A stretch of DNA of 64,000 bases from an uncultured Lachnospiraceae bacterium (GTDB taxonomy: Bacteria > Bacillota > Clostridia > Lachnospirales > Lachnospiraceae). The DNA lies in NCBI GenBank assembly GCA_902776305.1, contig CACYPS010000017.1, forward strand, positions 27,427 through 91,426. Reading direction: 5' to 3'. Of the stretch, positions 3,472 through 13,129 are shown one piece after another. A program made the position numbers and the translations under genes. The stretch's first letter is position 1, and every line of letters starts with the position of its first letter. Under the pieces are notes generated by a model. The model was not told where the DNA came from. It searched no databases and saw nothing but the letters and a program-made list of their open reading frames with translations.

Positions 3472-3527
3472 CTGGTTATGTCTACACGATATTAAAAGTT
3501 TGCTGAGATAAACGTTTTATAGTTGCT

Positions 3528-4169
3528 TTAAGCTGTCGCCTGTAATTTCACAGTCATCATGGCTTTTCTGACCGCCGGGACTGCGAGGAGAATCAATGTA
3601 AGAAGACCTTCCGCACAGAGATAGAAGCCATTATAGCTGATGGAATAAACAAGCGGATTCATTCCCTCAGGTGCGTACATACCGAAGAATATGACGCCCG
3701 AAAGGACAGCGAAAAAGAAGCGGCCGAGGACTGCGCAAATGTATCCGATCAGCAGACCGTTCTTCTTGTCAGAGAAGAAACCGGAAATTCCGAGAGCACC
3801 GAATGCGAGCGGGTAGTCCACAAGCATCTGCGGCAGAGAGACGATGTACGGACCTAAGATCAAACGAAGAAGCCCGTAAGTTACGCCTGCCAGAAGTCCG
3901 ACGACCGGACCGTACCAGTAGCCGATCAGAACTACGAAAAGCATGGAAAATAAGGTGATGGAGCCTCCGGTCGGCAACCTGAAGAGTTTGATCTGACTGC
4001 ACACAACTGCGAGTGCGAGCGCCATGGAACAGTAAGCGAGCTGCTTTGCTCCGATCTTTTTGCGGCCGCCTGCAAAAACAGATATGACAATCAGTAAAAG
4101 GAATACGGCTACAGCAACTAACGTGTAGCCGGCGGCGGTGAGTCCGCCGTCTTGCGTGACAAAAAACAT
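3528..4169 (-). CDS. thiT: Thiamine ECF transporter substrate-binding component ThiT
   Basis: A 213-aa protein with about six transmembrane segments. The stretch DYPLAFGALG near the middle matches the ThiT family, in which this region contributes to thiamine binding. ThiT is the S component of an energy-coupling factor transporter; the EcfA/A'/T module it needs is not in this window. The 5' leader is a TPP riboswitch whose 3' end contains the gene's ribosome-binding site, so thiamine uptake should be shut down when TPP is plentiful. The gene stands alone between two terminator or leader elements. Confidence 0.92.
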   Translation of the reverse strand: MFFVTQDGGLTAAGYTLVAVAVFLLLIVISVFAGGRKKIGAKQLAYCSMALALAVVCSQIKLFRLPTGGSITLFSMLFVVLIGYWYGPVVGLLAGVTYGLLRLILGPYIVSLPQMLVDYPLAFGALGISGFFSDKKNGLLIGYICAVLGRFFFAVLSGVIFFGMYAPEGMNPLVYSISYNGFYLCAEGLLTLILLAVPAVRKAMMTVKLQATA

Positions 4170-4175
4170 ATAGAT

Positions 4176-4256
4176 GCCTCCTTACGCCGGTATTATCCGG
4201 ATCAAGTAATAGGGGTCGTGCAGATGCACTCTCAGCCTGATGCGCCCCCAGCAACA
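4176..4256 (-). promoter_or_regulatory. TPP riboswitch (thi-box) upstream of thiT
   Basis: Read on the minus strand, the conserved thi-box blocks occur in order: GGGGGCGC, GGCTGAGAGTG, GACCC, CTTGATCCGGATAATACC and GCGTAAGGA. These are the P2/J2-3/P3 and P4/P5 signatures of the TPP aptamer. The terminal GTAAGGAGG also carries the Shine-Dalgarno of thiT, which starts 7 bp further on (ATG at 4167-4169). No separate terminator hairpin fits in between, so control is inferred to be translational, by sequestration of the ribosome site. Confidence 0.93.
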
Positions 4257-4410
4257 TAATAACTATAGTGCAGTTGCGGCACTACGTCAAGGAACCTCTT
4301 GCATGTATTTCAGGAAAGACATTCTGAAAGAAGTTGATGGAGGTGTGGGTGGAGCAATGCAAAAAGGTCGGAGGAATATGAATAACAATCGGTGTATTAT
4401 CACGATTTCT

Positions 4411-4497
4411 GGGGTTGAGGATCGCAGCCGCACATTAAGGAAGGTGCTTCGCACCATGCGTGGCGCGGCAAGAACGACGAGGTGTTCTTGATTAGTG
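4411..4497 (+). repeat. REP-like dispersed element, copy A
   Basis: One of three related elements (see also 9038-9132 and 63463-63552). Shared blocks are GGATCGCAG, GGAAGGTGCTTCGCACCATGCG (a GGTGC/GCACC mini-hairpin) and a terminal dyad, here CAAGAACGACGAGGTGTTCTTG with one imperfect pair. It lies in an intergenic region between the thiT riboswitch and the candidate ncRNA. The rest of 4260-4640 holds no convincing gene; a reading frame at 4240-4491 runs through the riboswitch and the repeat and is not credible. Confidence 0.75.
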
Positions 4498-4646
4498 AGT
4501 GTAGAGAAGCGGAGAAAGTAATGAGAGCAGAAAATGATAGAGAATTCAGACAAATAAATGGAAAATGCATATTTTAGACCGAATAGTACGTGCCGACATG
4601 AATATTACGAATATTAAAATTAAAATAGAAAAATGATAAAAAACTG

Positions 4647-4675
4647 TTGACAAAAACCAGAACTAAATGTAAAAT
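4647..4675 (+). promoter_or_regulatory. Sigma-70-type promoter for the candidate ncRNA
   Basis: A perfect -35 TTGACA (4647-4652), a 17-bp spacer and a -10 TAAAAT (4670-4675), in a very A-rich setting. The predicted start is near 4682. No protein-coding gene follows directly. Confidence 0.75.
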
Positions 4676-4682
4676 AACATCA

Positions 4683-5320
4683 TCAACAAAAACAAATTAC
4701 AAAAATTCAACAAAGGAGGACAGTCCATTGGAAGTTTAAGTTCTTGGTAATTCCTTTTCATCTTAAGAAAAGTCCAGTTCTATCAGATTTAAAAATCAAA
4801 GATCATTCTTATGAGGAAGGATCTTCACAAGGAGCCAGGAGTTCCTAAAAGGTTTTTATAACAGAAGTACATGGATACTCTTTTAAGAATTGAATTCCAG
4901 AAAATTTTTTAGTTTCTCAATAAAAAATCAAGTTTTTCAGATTTAGTAGTAAGTTTAAATACAGAATATGTATTAACCATTACGTCCAACATTCCGAATC
5001 CTGAGTGATTAATAACAACATTACCTAAACCTAAGAATAAAACCAAAACCTGTTTAAGATTTGAGAAGAAACTAACGGCTGATCAAGATAATCTGGAGGA
5101 CAATCCAATGAACGGTTGACGTCCTTATGGACTTAATCAATAAAGGTACCTTAAATAAGCGAGAGGAGGTTATACAGTGAAACTTCTAAATATTCATTAA
5201 TGGGGCTATCCGAATGGCAGTTGATCAAAGAAAGCATTTGGATAGCCCTTAAAATTTGCCTATTTTTATATTTGTTTATTCATGGTGTCAGGCATATCGT
5301 ATTGCCTGATTTATTTTTGT
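4683..5320 (+). ncRNA. Candidate large structured non-coding RNA, class not identified
   Basis: About 640 nt of A+T-rich sequence lies between a consensus promoter and an intrinsic terminator, with no ORF of 60 codons on either strand until the 3' end. Local hairpins include CTTTTC/GAAAAG (4754-4772), AAGATC/GATCTT (4799-4825), AATACA/TGTATT near 4960, GTCC/GGAC (5121-5132) and GGGCTATCC/GGATAGCCC (5203-5248). CATTGGA near the 5' end (4726-4732) is complementary to TCCAATG near the 3' end (5104-5110), a possible closing helix. Three GGAGG motifs each precede a start codon leading to micro-ORFs of 3, 3 and 7 codons. Size and setting recall large RNA classes such as ROOL or OLE, but I cannot assign it. 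Alternatively it is a leader for a small hydrophobic protein (ATG at 5200) or a decayed region. Confidence 0.5.
5288..5320 (+). terminator. Intrinsic terminator of the candidate ncRNA
   Basis: TCAGGCA (5288-5294) pairs with TGCCTGA (5303-5309), followed by TTTATTTTTGTG. An upstream hairpin (GGGCTATCCGAATG with CATTTGGATAGCCC, 5203-5248) may add to structure at the 3' end. Confidence 0.7.
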
Positions 5321-5536
5321 GTCTTAAAATAAAGGAAGATGATGATCTCCGTCGACACAGGCAACCGATGATCTATATGCAAAGCAGCAGTGTGCCATGC
5401 GTAAAGGACTGCAGCACAAGAGCATTGCATGGGAATGGAGGTTCATCAGGCCGGGAAAACCAAATTTCTTAGAGGGAGATGACCCCGCCCATAGAGGCGG
5501 CGGACTCCGGATCAGTCTCATTGGAGGATTAAAATT
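5321..5536 (+). other. Structured-looking leader upstream of the HAD gene
   Basis: No gene is visible. The last 60 bp before the Shine-Dalgarno can fold: GAGATGA and TCAGTCTC flank a CCGCC/GGCGG hairpin (about 5475-5521), followed by TTGGAGG and the ATG at 5537. I do not recognise a known riboswitch. No clear promoter was found. Confidence 0.3.
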
Positions 5537-6331
5537 ATGATCAGATTGATTGCAAGTGACATCGACGGAACACTGGTAAGGGAAAGCTCACATCACATTA
5601 ACCCTGAATATTTTGACGTGATCCGTGCGCTCAAGGCGAAGGGCATTCGTTTCTGTGCATGCAGCGGTAGACAGTATAAGAGTATTTACGAACTGTTCAA
5701 GCCGGTGGCAGATGACATCTATTTTATCGCGGAAAACGGCAGTCTCCTGCGCACGAAGAACGAGATTTTGTTCCAGTGGGCTATAGAGGAGAAGTACATC
5801 TATCCACTCATCTCCGATATCCGCCGCGAAACGGATGTCGACATTACAGTCAGCAAGGCTGAATGCGCGTATACGGAGTGCGGCACACATAAGAATCCGT
5901 ATGTCTATCTGAGAGATGCGTACAAATACGCTGTCGAAGATATCTACAGCCTCGATTATTTAAGCAAGGTCGGCGTTTTGAAGTTCTCCCTGTACCATCC
6001 GAAGGATGCCGAAAAGAGTTGTGAGTGGCTTTTCAAGTCTTTTTGGAATGATAAGTTCAAAATTGTCTGCTCAGGTGCCAATTGGGTAGATATGTGTGCC
6101 ATGAACGCCGGTAAAGGTGAGGCTTACGCTCTCCTTCAGGAGTATCTGGATATTCCGAAAGAGGAGACCATATATTTCGGAGATAATATGAACGACCTGA
6201 CGGCATTTGAAGAGACGGGAACGAGTTATACCGTTGCAAATGCAAGGTCGGAAGTGCAGCATGAGGCCGATATTGTTGCCGCATCTTATAAACAGGACGG
6301 CGTGCTTAAGGTGTTGAAGAGTTTTCTTTGA
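5537..6331 (+). CDS. HAD superfamily hydrolase, Cof-type phosphatase
   Basis: A 264-aa protein of the Cof/YbiV-like HAD subfamily with a C2B-type cap. Motif I DIDGT is at residues 8-12 (D8 nucleophile, D10 acid/base), motif II Ser in CACSGR near 43, the motif III Lys in KGEA near 193, and motif IV GDNMND at 215-220. Such enzymes dephosphorylate sugar phosphates or cofactors; the substrate cannot be told from sequence. A GGAGG ribosome site precedes the ATG. It stands alone between two long leaders. Confidence 0.88.
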   Translation: MIRLIASDIDGTLVRESSHHINPEYFDVIRALKAKGIRFCACSGRQYKSIYELFKPVADDIYFIAENGSLLRTKNEILFQWAIEEKYIYPLISDIRRETDVDITVSKAECAYTECGTHKNPYVYLRDAYKYAVEDIYSLDYLSKVGVLKFSLYHPKDAEKSCEWLFKSFWNDKFKIVCSGANWVDMCAMNAGKGEAYALLQEYLDIPKEETIYFGDNMNDLTAFEETGTSYTVANARSEVQHEADIVAASYKQDGVLKVLKSFL

Positions 6332-6526
6332 CATTTTCAGTTCACATACGAGGCTGTAAGCTTGTGCCATGCTGTATCTGAGAAGTTATCGAGAGAGCGA
6401 AGGTTGCATTTTCCGGCAGAATGGTCTACAATCTACGGATAGTACACCTGAGCGAAAAACAGGTGTCAGAGCGGATAGCCGCAAAATATAATAACGCCGC
6501 ACCGTGCGGCACACTGGAGAATAAAA
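6332..6526 (+). other. asnS leader with inverted repeats
   Basis: A 195-bp gap with two clear hairpins: ACACCTG/CAGGTGT (about 6446-6468) and GCCGCA/TGCGGC close to the start codon (about 6496-6510). I looked for T-box features because asnS follows, but the conserved T-box core (AGGGTGGNACCGCG) and a downstream terminator are absent. The weak ribosome site CTGGAG precedes the ATG. Confidence 0.35.
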
Positions 6527-7921
6527 ATGGAAAAGCTAGTTACAGTCAGAGAGTTATTCAAAGAGACCGAGAAGTATATTGACACGACCGTCAAGGTGGG
6601 CGGCTGGGTACGCTCCATCCGCGGATCGAAGGCGTTTGGTTTCATGGTCCTGAGCGACGGTTCCTTCTACAACACATTACAGATCGTCTTCCACGACAAG
6701 ATGGACAATTTCACGGAAGTCAGCAAGCTGAATGTAGGTTCCGCGGTTATCGTTACAGGCACCCTGGTTGCCACACCTGAGGCAAAGCAGCCGTTCGAGA
6801 TCCAGGCGGATACTGTCGAGATCGAAGGAGCATCCACACCGGATTACCCGATGCAGAAGAAGCGCCATACGCTTGATTATCTGCGCACGATGCCGCATCT
6901 TCGTCCGCGCACGAACACGTTCCAGGCAGTCTTCCGCGTACGCTCCCTGATTGCATACGCAATCCATAAGTTCTTTATGGAGCGCGACTTCGTATATGTA
7001 CATACTCCGATCATCACGGCGTCTGACGCTGAAGGTGCCGGCGAGATGTTCCAGGTAACGACACTGCCGCTCGACAAGCTCCCGATGACGGAGGACGGCC
7101 AGATCGATTACAGCAAGGATTTCTTTGGCAAGATGACCAACATGACGGTCTCCGGTCAGCTGAACGTGGAGCCGTTTGCGATGTCATTCCGCAACGTGTA
7201 CACATTCGGACCGACATTCCGTGCCGAGAATTCCAATACCGCGCGCCATGCAGCGGAGTTCTGGATGATTGAGCCGGAGATGGCATTTGCAGATCTTGAA
7301 GATAACATGGAAGTCGCGGAAGCGATGATCAAGTATATCATCAACTATGTCCTTGAGAATGCTCCGGAAGAGATGGCTTTCTTCAATCAGTTCATCGACA
7401 AGGGTCTCATTGATCGCCTGAAGGGTGTAGCGAGCGCTGAATTCGGTCATGTGACTTACACGGAAGCAATCGATATTCTTCTGAAGTCCGGCAAGCAGTT
7501 CGACTACCCGGTCAAGTGGGGCGTCGACCTTCAGACTGAGCACGAGCGCTACCTGACAGAGGAGGTCTTTAAGAGACCGGTCTTTGTCACAGATTATCCG
7601 AAGGAAATCAAGGCTTTCTACATGAAGCTCAATCCGGACGGAAAGACCGTTGCGGCTATGGACTGCCTTGTTCCGGGTATCGGAGAGATCATCGGCGGTT
7701 CTCAGCGTGAGGAGGACTATGACAAGCTCATCGGCCGTATGAAGGAACTCGATATGGATCTCAAGCAGTATCAGTTCTATCTTGACCTTCGCAAATACGG
7801 CACAGTCAGACATTCCGGATTCGGCCTCGGCTTTGAGCGCTGCGTTATGTATCTGACAGGTATGGCAAATATCAGAGATGTGCTGCCGTATCCGAGAACG
7901 GTGAAGAATTGCGAGCAGTAA
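6527..7921 (+). CDS. asnS: Asparagine-tRNA ligase
   Basis: A 464-aa class IIb aminoacyl-tRNA synthetase that charges tRNA-Asn. The N-terminal OB-fold anticodon-binding domain occupies about residues 1-110 ([18 protein letters not shown]). The class II catalytic domain contains motif 2 ([19 protein letters not shown]) and motif 3 ([15 protein letters not shown], 431-445). The length is normal for bacterial AsnRS. It is monocistronic, with a 195-bp leader and a strong terminator downstream. Confidence 0.97.
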
Positions 7922-11474: not shown

Positions 11475-13129
11475 CCTGAATTATTCATGACGTATGGGAC
11501 ATGCCCTTGAAACGTCGATTTGTTACACAACAATACCACTATCCACGTTCGGCTCTCAGCAGGACGGCATTTGTCCACATAAATGGGCACAATACTCCCG
11601 TTGAGTTCTGAAAGCGGCATATGGTATTGTCAAGGTTCATTGTTCTGCTGTCAGACATTCCCGGAATTCATCCTTATAGGGACAGCTGCTGCAGAACCTG
11701 AAACTTCGGTATCTGGCTGACCGTATTACCCTTGCGGCAATTTTGATCAGTTTCAGGCGGAAAGTCTCGATCTGCATTTTCTGAAAATGCTTCGGAAGCA
11801 CCAGCCGTTTGAACCAGTTGAACAGGTTATACGCCAGCATGCAGATCATCAGGCGGCCTGCATTCACCAGCATGGCATGGCTGCTCATACAGGAGAAATC
11901 AAAACCGTTCTTGGACTCCTTGATATAGTTCTCCATGCGGCCGCGGTTTCAGTAAAACCTGATGACATCTCCCGGCGAAAGGTCCATGTTTGTTACGATA
12001 AATGTGTACATGTAAGTCATCTGGTCTGTGGGCTTCTCCACTTTACAGACGACACGCCGGGCATATTTCCATGAGCTGGCCTTATACATGAATTCGCCAT
12101 AACAGACAGCATAGTCAACCTTGTTGTCTTTGGTCAGTTCATCCAGATCAGCTTCGACATATGACGCAGAAGATCTTAAGTTGCTGTTCATCTTAAGACG
12201 GATGGCATAACTGCAGCCATGGGTCTCCGCGAGATCATAGATCTCCTGAGCGGCAAAGCCGCTGTCTCCCCGCAGGGAGATCATAACATCGGGATACTGT
12301 TCAAGGAACTCATTCAGCAGAGGCTCGAGAAACAGATGCGCATCACTGCTGCAGTATTTCGTCCCCTTACGGAGCTCCGCCTTGAGAAGGTCACCTGTCA
12401 GACCGTCAAAGCACAACAATGGGTGGAATTCGTGGCTTTGATAATGATAGTTGAATCCTTCACCTTCCTGATGGCCATAAGTCTTCAGGAGCGTGGAGTC
12501 CAGATCCAGGAGGATGTTTTCCGGAGGCCGGATCCCATAGATCTTATGACGGAGAATGCGGAAGATCTTCTCGAACTGGAGCAGGGAATCCTCATCCAGA
12601 CGATTGAAAAAACGCGATATCGTGGGCTGGGAAGCAAGGGCGTCCTTGCCCAGGACCGCGCAGAACACAGGATCTGTGGTAAGCTCATCCGCATCGTTGT
12701 CATTGAAGTATCCGGCAAGGATCTGATAAATCCTTTGCATTAGATTCTTGTCATCAGTATGGATCCGGAATACAGCAGGATCATTGGTTTGGAAGTTGTC
12801 ACGGATAACCTTTTCGAAACCGATGCGATTCGCGAATTCCTTCAGAAGGAACAAGCCTCCGTCGGAAGAAAGTTCGCCGCCATTGAAGTTATATTTGAAT
12901 TGCTTATTGAAACTGAAAGAGGTGTCATTTACAATAGACATAGGGATCTCTCCTTTATGTTTTGGTTTTGATTCGACACCTTAATCTTAACATAGCTGAG
13001 ATCCTTTTTCTATGTTAAGTGTAAGCAGCGCAATATCTTCACTTGGCAGGTGAATGCAGTATGTAATTGTAAACACAGTAACAATGCGGGTTTTCCCGCA
13101 GTCACCGGAAAGCCAGTGAATTATTCAGG
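11475..13129 (-). mobile_element. IS1380-family insertion sequence, 1,655 bp
   Basis: The ends are inverted copies of CCTGAATTATTCA (11475-11487 and 13117-13129), 13 bp perfect; IS1380-family ends begin with CC. The size and the single transposase fit that family. The flanks (TAAT on the left, TTAA on the right) do not give a clear target duplication, so an old insertion or rearranged flanks are possible. A perfect CTTAACATAG/CTATGTTAAG inverted repeat (12986-12995, 13010-13019) upstream of the transposase could block incoming transcription. About 145 bp of the left end (11475-11636) is non-coding. Confidence 0.88.
11637..12941 (-). pseudogene. IS1380-family transposase, interrupted by a nonsense codon
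   Basis: The gene would encode 433 aa plus one internal stop. The first 330 aa carry the DDE-type core (LDLDSTLLKTYGHQEG, ISLRGDSGF) and end at TGA (11949-11951). The same frame then continues without interruption as NRGRMENYIKESKNGFDF, the conserved C-terminal glutamate-containing region of IS1380 transposases, to 11637. A single base change (for example CGA to TGA) explains it; no frameshift is needed. The C-terminal catalytic part is therefore lost and the element is probably immobile unless helped in trans. Confidence 0.9.

Follow-up and report, generated by a model that had tools for sequence, protein, structure and literature searches.

The locus described here raises the question of what is conserved, and to what end, in a transcription unit that appears to hold no gene. 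It is situated in a 64,000-nucleotide stretch of DNA from an uncultured Lachnospiraceae bacterium (assembly GCA_902776305.1, contig CACYPS010000017.1, positions 27,427 to 91,426; the whole stretch is referred to as the window), for which the initial annotation had described an A+T-rich region between a promoter and a terminator and had proposed a large structured RNA. Long A+T-rich gene-less transcription units are known, namely OLE, ROOL and GOLLD. On re-examination, the observation of the locus was confirmed and its interpretation was partly supported.

The unit in the window

Of 11 promoter-like sites scored in positions 3500-7000, the promoter of the unit (Table 1) ranked first (11 of 12 matches), with 5.6 such sites expected there from shuffled sequences. 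The A+T-rich character of what follows was also borne out, with a G+C fraction of 0.25-0.36 in 200-nt intervals within 4500-5299 as against 0.37-0.55 in the flanking intervals. The description of the region as being without an ORF of 60 codons holds for ORFs lying wholly inside 4680-5320, of which there are none, but a 90-codon ORF (5200-5472, +) begins inside it and exits; this ORF crosses both hairpins of the unit and we take it to be a chance ORF. A terminator-like hairpin was found as described (5287-5310, followed by TTATTTTTGT), being weak on its own because six such sites were found by the scan where 3.3 are expected. The stretch as a whole folds better than its own shuffles (z -4.3, 20 shuffles only), and the minigene stretch is single-copy in the 4.08-Mb genome.

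Matches to Rfam in the window at the gathering score were a TPP riboswitch at 4162-4259 (-), the large SRP RNA and a tRNA, with no others. The TPP riboswitch lies upstream of a gene at 3528-4169 (-) that we take to be thiT-like and that is divergent from the minigene unit; by protein clustering, a thiT-like gene within two genes of the unit was also found at L014, L055, L065, L092 and the near-identical L100. Downstream of the unit a co-directional gene is situated at 5537. Elsewhere in the window, a transposase-like gene (11637-12941, -), presumably of an IS1380-like family, is apparently broken into two ORFs of 330 and 99 codons.

Table 1. Coordinates of the features of the unit in the window
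Feature	Position	Strand	Basis and remarks
Sigma-A-type promoter, TTGACA-17-TAAAAT	4647..4675	+	Promoter scan; window copy is among the 63/76 units with an 11-12/12 match promoter
Predicted transcript	4682..5320	+	About 640 nt, or about 570 nt if ending at the first hairpin; start inferred from promoter, end from hairpins
Minigene A1, GGAGG and GUCCA leader, TTG GAA GTT TAA (M-E-V-stop)	4715..4739	+	Start 4728-4730, stop 4737-4739
Minigene A2, GGAGG and AUCCA leader, ATG AAC GGT TGA (M-N-G-stop)	5095..5119	+	Start 5108-5110, stop 5117-5119
Minigene C, GGAGG, GTG AAA CTT CTA AAT ATT CAT TAA (MKLLNIH)	5165..5200	+	Start 5177-5179, stop 5198-5200
15-bp hairpin, GGGGCTATCCGAATG/CATTTGGATAGCCCT	5202..5249	+	Begins one base past the stop of minigene C; covaries at 12/12 pairs in 46 relatives
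Second hairpin and T-run, probable final terminator of the window copy	5287..5320	+	Terminator scan

Three minigenes, which had been missed in the initial annotation, were identified in the unit. The spacers from leader to start are GGAGG-acagtcca-TTG for A1, GGAGG-acaatcca-ATG for A2 and GGAGG-ttataca-GTG for C, the leader motif found across the family of units being GGAGG-N3-GUCCR. Searching the genome of the window with the pattern GGAGG-N4-WCC-R-NTG gave 10 occurrences, two of them inside the unit, compared to 5 in a reversed control. The 7-bp complementarity of CATTGGA and TCCAATG, previously noted as possibly joining the 5' and 3' parts of the RNA, does exist but is not evidence for a closing helix; as its halves (GGAGGACAGTCCATTGGA at 4715 and GGAGGACAATCCAATG at 5095) lie in the leaders and starts of A1 and A2, it is mainly a by-product of the repeated motif. 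In L042, the nearest diverged copy, both three-codon minigenes retain their start, stop and length while their residues change, with M-E-V of A1 becoming M-A-T (TTG GCA ACA TAA) and M-N-G of A2 becoming M-N-R. The hairpin behind minigene C is a probable terminator and perhaps a leaky one, the TAAAATTTGCC that follows it being a poor T-run in the window copy.

Relatives of the unit and their distribution

By DNA search, a match was found for 14 of the 42 genus genomes and for 18 of 299 family genomes, some of the weak family matches (e.g. L029-L033, L035, L036) being due to chance on reading. A collection of species genomes was then scanned for a conserved 20-mer, giving at least 118 stretches, which were mostly titled with Lachnospiraceae, Eubacterium or other Clostridia names. 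The pattern was exact and covered GAGGTTATA.AGTGA..CTT, the Shine-Dalgarno site included, so that conservation of its letters and of M-K/R-L among these matches is by construction; the evidence that is independent of the pattern is that of ORF length, stop, hairpin, upstream minigenes and the matches found by model alone. Together with the earlier loci these stretches numbered 153, or 125 distinct sites after removal of 28 duplicates, and 116 of these 125 distinct sites among the matches listed, the window copy included, form units. The nine sites dropped (L039, L045, L057, L088, L112, L137, L148, L149, L157) had a long ORF and/or no hairpin; one of these, L157, was the only match on a viral contig and has an ORF of 51 codons. 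A phage or plasmid origin was rejected, with no match having been found in phages or plasmids. Listed carriers include Eubacterium ramulus ATCC 29099 (locus L102) and Faecalicatena contorta ET52 (locus L060), both cultured, as well as [Eubacterium] cellulosolvens, Clostridium fessum and Parablautia.

A covariance model (R1), built from an alignment of 81 sequences, matched at 40 bits or more in 35 of 397 family genomes, these matches not being individually read. Within the genus, the unit was found in 17 of 42 genomes and in 9 of the 18 that are nearly complete. It is thus dispensable, given this patchy occurrence in both genus and family, and it seems to have been gained or lost often in the genus. 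Outside the family, where seven loci were read, a convincing unit was found in two genomes of one genus (L188/L218, L219), in which an M-R-I or M-R-K minigene precedes a 10-codon ORF (MKLDFKSEQK or MKLDLKSEQK) and a hairpin. The others read (L189, L190, L192, L193, L222) are not units, L189 having a five-codon ORF before a hairpin without a Shine-Dalgarno site, and most R1 matches outside the family look like the result of chance. One family member that was read, L221, has no unit. Two tandem units each were observed in L105 (1171-1998, -) and L107 (4936-5515, +), 746 and 494 nt apart respectively, and some genomes have two or more copies, e.g. L101 and L114 from one assembly.

These relatives uphold the proposal of a self-contained transcription unit that has a promoter and a terminator but no gene. 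Among the matches listed, 63 of 76 tested units have a promoter with 11-12 of 12 matches ahead of their first minigene, compared to 0.6 of 76 for shuffled sequences, with an exact TTGACA in 70 of the 76 and a median distance of 56.5 nt from the -10 box to the leader (40 of the 116 were left out of this test, having no minigene by regular expression or less than 120 nt before it). For the 63 listed units with a clear promoter, with up to 700 nt upstream examined, the distance from the -10 box to the end of the hairpin is 152-596 nt (median 256), and the window copy, at 574 nt, is among the longest. The next gene is on the same strand in 62 of the 116 listed units and on the opposite strand in 45, with none in nine, and no clear link in orientation between the unit and the next gene was observed. 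Clustering of 382 neighbouring proteins identified no family that recurs beyond local synteny, an example of the latter being thiT and asnS (presumed gene names) around the window copy and its nearest kin.

Final minigene, upstream minigenes and leaders

The length of the final GTG ORF is narrowly set among the matches listed, being seven codons in 94 of 116 units and eight in 22, and in all 116 listed units a hairpin of 9-18 bp begins 22-28 nt past the start codon. The same arrangement was found where the 20-mer had played no part in selection, as 17 of 20 weaker covariance-model matches that were fetched hold a final ORF of 7-8 codons and the hairpin, with three being without a unit. Other codons are used in these, as in ATG AAA TTA CTG GAA ATT CAT TAA (MKLLEIH), GTG AAA CTC CAG ATT GAC AGG TAA (MKLQIDR) and ATG AAG ATT CAG ATC ATT CAT TAA (MKIQIIH). 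In L211 and L200 the final peptide is MILKEPF (ATG ATT TTG AAA GAA CCG TTT TAA and GTG ATT TTA AAA GAA CCG TTT TAA, respectively, the Shine-Dalgarno site of L200 being unusually distant from the start), and in two members of the genus, L250 and L251, it is MENRFIS and MHNKFIC. Judged from these sequences, the final peptide is often conserved and yet entirely replaceable, while length, stop and hairpin persist. Which stop is used varies at the same place, with TAA, TAG and TGA in 96, 25 and 19 of 140 final ORFs that were preselected for 7-8 codons, Leu or Ile at codon 3 and a hairpin.

The terminal hairpin was examined in an alignment of 46 sequences, consisting of 27 divergent modules (from 26 loci, all of those tried) and 19 of the 81 sequences of R1. 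Changes on both sides were found at 12 of 12 pairs, and the covariation score was 0.762, compared to 0.306 for shuffled and at most 0.152 for slid alignments. Pairing was found in 98.0% of cells, a figure that is partly selected, because the scripts used to cut the modules sought a hairpin; the covariation is less affected. At least five T residues within an 8-nt interval follow the hairpin in 85 of 112 units among the matches listed, in keeping with a terminator. A general back-up terminator behind it was rejected, as only 21 of the 112 listed units have a further terminator-like site there. Many of the loops share one of two sequences despite differing stems (GACGAGAAA in L066, L102 and L131; GTAAAGAA in L117 and L028), and the loop may be selected for itself. 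A hairpin sequestering the Shine-Dalgarno site (AGGUU/AACUU), predicted by RNAalifold, was rejected because the later-found ATG/TTA members, compared by eye, do not keep it.

Upstream of the final ORF, up to 300 nt was scanned in 113 listed units, 3 of the 116 having less than 60 usable nt and being left out. This identified 123 Shine-Dalgarno-start sites with proper spacing, 120 of which stop within seven codons (four of them start-stop), including 99 with a stop within three codons and 19 of exactly six, with three extending beyond seven; a length of two codons was found at 55 of the 123. Shuffled sequences gave 5.3 short ORFs from 23.1 sites per replicate, and the reverse strand two from five. 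Among the 99 short minigenes, TAA, TAG and TGA (58, 26 and 15) alternate at one place, and the encoded peptides are M-K, M-A, M-G-R, M-R, M-G, M-Y and others, so that the last sense codon varies among copies (Lys, Ala, Arg, Gly, Tyr and others). The six-codon minigene is mostly MKGRDP-like and was found by a separate regular expression in 19 of the 116 listed units. L127 and L135 have eight consecutive M-Y minigenes, and L118 has six of three codons. Using a regular expression for leaders with CC, up to 700 nt upstream, at least one minigene of 1-3 codons was found in 81 of the 116 listed units and none in 35, only four of which have less than 200 nt of upstream sequence.

In L078, L099, L122, L187 and others, an AATCTCT..AAAGAGTTTACATAGATGTAAC-like stretch occurs before the six-codon minigene, approximately 60-200 nt upstream of the last minigene, and often includes a small inverted repeat that contains a start-stop ATG-TAA. 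Its AATCTC is often complementary to a GAGATT near the next Shine-Dalgarno site. Pairing of this AAUCUC with the Shine-Dalgarno site of the six-codon minigene was spotted by eye and rejected, not being predicted by RNAalifold.

Base use in the leaders was determined for 89 distinct leaders of 1-3-codon minigenes chosen without requiring CC. The start is mostly preceded by UCCA, with C at -3 in 100% and at -2 in 99%, T at -4 in 89% and A at -1 in 82%; G was found at -5 in 87%. Pairing with the 16S rRNA tail UGGAUCACCUCC is possible for GGAGG as well as for GUCCR, and the predicted duplex with the leader is -14.9 kcal/mol compared to -12.2 kcal/mol for shuffled linkers, being 2.7 better on average and better in 83 of 89, where the tail sequence used for these energies is the one we presume. 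The last 17 bases of the tail (TGGATCACCTCCTTTCT) were found in three of eight family genomes searched, one of which (G196) is a carrier, and were not found in the window's own assembly. An extended complementarity to the 16S tail is thus a predicted property of the leaders of 1-3-codon minigenes; the CC at -3/-2 could also serve another binder.

A further 30 leader-like elements (GGAGG..CCR) have no start codon. Five of these end six-codon minigenes, with the stop directly after UCCR. In the other 25, AAA, ACA, AAG, AUC or CCA replaces the start codon; the frame of the would-be start reaches a stop within 12 nt in 18 of them, compared to seven and one for the other frames. Start-less copies of the leader (approximately GGAGGTAYRGWCC-R, then AAA, ACA, AAG or ATC and one or two codons) that keep the in-frame stop were observed in L184, L186, L187, L198, L199, L202, L204, L206, L208, L210, L212 and L213.

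Possible function of the minigene array

On the sequences compared, the conserved content of the unit is a set of translation signals, namely a Shine-Dalgarno site, a start and a stop within 1-8 codons, and explanations of the unit differ in how they account for it. A large ornate structured RNA of the OLE, ROOL or GOLLD kind is highly improbable. The size, A+T content, fold z-score of -4.3, promoter and terminator would suit it, and the unit shares with these RNAs that it is A+T-rich and gene-less, but it matches no model, has no shared fold that could be found and has conserved tiny ORFs. Searches with cmscan of the window at the gathering score and of 4260-5540 at E up to 10 gave no match to ROOL, OLE, GOLLD or another relevant family (one snoRNA match being due to chance), 18 relatives gave no family match, and this candidate was rejected. 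Length (152-596 nt) and spacers vary between copies, and conservation follows codons. By eye, the stretches that separate the tiny ORFs differ strongly from genus to genus, and an alignment of 16 sequences (units with the six-codon minigene or the stretch preceding it) shares only the last hairpin and a weak Shine-Dalgarno hairpin. The search for homologues with covarying helices that had been recommended did find relatives, the terminal hairpin being the only strongly covarying helix found. Some local structure between the minigenes may still be present. Compensatory changes in local helices of the two nearest diverged copies (effectively two sequences), together with the better folding of the window copy relative to its shuffles, would favour a base-pairing sRNA or other RNA that has its working part between the minigenes and in which the minigenes load ribosomes as protection from RNase; with so little of the inter-minigene sequence shared, this is judged to be quite unlikely. 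Attenuator leader peptides are likewise encoded by a short ORF beside a terminator hairpin, and ribosomes on the last minigene might control read-through into a downstream gene. Although stop codon and terminator-like hairpin abut and the window copy is followed by the co-directional gene at 5537, only 62 of 107 next genes among the matches listed are co-directional, the other 45 being on the opposite strand, no consistent gene or recurrent family is found downstream, and the window copy has its further terminator-like site at 5287. An attenuator was rejected for its unfixed orientation and the lack of a recurrent downstream gene family, and there is very little likelihood of this role.

Two explanations would instead place the function in the products of translation. 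The final 7-8-residue product (MKLLNIH and its kin) may be a signal or modified peptide, with the upstream minigenes tuning its translation. MKL..IH recurs with synonymous codons, Leu3 being encoded by CTT, TTA, TTG, CTC, CTA and CTG, and mccA likewise has seven codons, a strong Shine-Dalgarno site and a terminator immediately after it (PMC6495379). Against this, some copies have wholly different peptides (MENRFIS, MHNKFIC, MILKEPF), residues 4-8 vary, the terminal Asn needed by microcin C occurs in one of 116 listed units, and no neighbouring family recurs beyond local synteny by protein clustering, leaving a peptide gene unlikely. Improbable too is a conditional growth inhibitor, acting as a dormancy or defence RNA, in which the minigenes, in the manner of toxic minigenes, would deplete the cell's tRNAs through the release of peptidyl-tRNAs. 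The features reported to raise minigene toxicity (a strong Shine-Dalgarno site, a length of two codons and UAA; PMC8708949) are common here, with 55 of 123 sites being of two codons and 58 of 99 short ones ending in TAA. The last sense codon differs between copies, however, so that no single tRNA would be targeted; the two-codon minigene of axe-txe proved non-toxic (PMC8708949), and protein clustering identified no recurrent neighbour.

The explanation we favour, to which about even credence is given, is that of a ribosome-trap RNA, in which the minigene array would hold ribosomes in reiterative start-stop cycles. The architecture of the unit is well supported, as its length limits, stops, promoter, hairpin covariation and complementarity emerge from the comparison of sequences; we infer that the unit is transcribed and translated, and that holding of ribosomes is its physiological role. 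The RNA of the window copy would be a string of minigenes, with two ORFs of three codons and one of seven codons whose stop abuts the terminator hairpin, and in those of relatives as many as eight minigenes of 1-3 codons, at times together with a six-codon minigene, would precede a final minigene of 7-8 codons (or of 10, in one other family). Each strong Shine-Dalgarno site would catch a 30S subunit, the site being extended in the 1-3-codon type by GUCCR, which may pair with UGGAU of the 16S rRNA 3' end. The ribosome would terminate and, remaining tethered because the ORF is so short, would restart on the same site (reiterative translation), so that several ribosomes could be held per RNA. At the last minigene a ribosome would be held against the hairpin, and this, by analogy with mccA, may promote termination and shield the 3' end. 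The RNA would probably serve to reduce or buffer the cell's capacity for translation in certain conditions, or as a competitor of other mRNAs.

Reiterative translation, in which the ribosome does not dissociate, is possible for ORFs of 2-8 codons; approximately 71 rounds in vitro are reported for the seven-codon mccA, 30 for 11 codons and six for 15, and a ribosome bound to mccA induces termination at the hairpin that follows (PMC6495379). The ORF lengths of the unit (1-3, 6 and 7-8 codons) fall almost wholly within this range of 2-8 codons. Several observations stand against a trap. By regular expression, 35 of 116 listed units have no minigene of 1-3 codons; the start-less elements with an in-frame stop (18 of 25) are not explained by simple reiterative initiation; the partly conserved final heptapeptide (MKL..IH) would be needless for a pure trap; and the distribution is patchy (17 of 42 genus genomes). 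The known reiteration data are in vitro and concern one ORF and not an array.

The start-less elements are included in a further form of the ribosome trap, which is put forward as a tentative possibility, namely a dedicated trap RNA that would be the ribosome's counterpart of 6S RNA. Its docking sites, some of them start-less with an in-frame stop, would pair with the whole 16S 3' tail (CCUCC and UGGAU), and its ORFs of 1-8 codons would keep ribosomes cycling, removing a share of them from use. 6S RNA sequesters RNA polymerase, and the analogy is one of function only, as an RNA decoy for a core machine whose proposed target here is the ribosome.

Minigenes consisting of a Shine-Dalgarno site and an ORF of 2-3 codons are known from the bar minigenes of phage lambda. 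The axe-txe minigene mg2 is likewise a Shine-Dalgarno site followed by so short an ORF, but it is a gene-leader minigene acting in cis (PMC8708949), whereas the arrays described here are gene-less. With mccA the unit has in common its final ORF (seven codons in 94 of 116 listed units, eight in 22), a strong Shine-Dalgarno site (which was part of the search pattern), a hairpin terminator directly behind the stop and what would be a short monocistronic RNA (PMC6495379). Microcin C precursors, however, end in Asn and sit beside mccB, whereas the unit has no neighbour that recurs beyond local synteny by protein clustering, has extra minigenes and can change its peptide completely; with Asn in only one of 116 listed units the C-terminal residue is wrong, and a microcin C precursor was rejected. 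No paper on MKLLNIH or MKGRDP was found in the open-licence literature, and a stand-alone minigene-array RNA had no match in Rfam 15 and nothing similar in the open-licence literature searched. Single minigenes, mccA and minigene toxicity are thus already known; we rate the stand-alone array as a new architecture with a proposed mechanism.

To our knowledge, the ORFs of the unit are shorter than any small-protein limit. Because these ORFs are tiny and the sole shared helix is terminator-like, gene finders and searches for structured RNAs would tend to miss such units. Units in which nothing but an array of start-to-stop minigenes is conserved would represent a novel class of RNA that lies between coding and non-coding, with occurrences in Lachnospiraceae-type gut bacteria and, in at least one case, another family of the same taxonomic class. 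If the proposed mechanism is true, reiterative translation of minigenes, until now a laboratory oddity, would be a natural device, and these bacteria would possess an RNA that lowers the number of free ribosomes without any protein factor.
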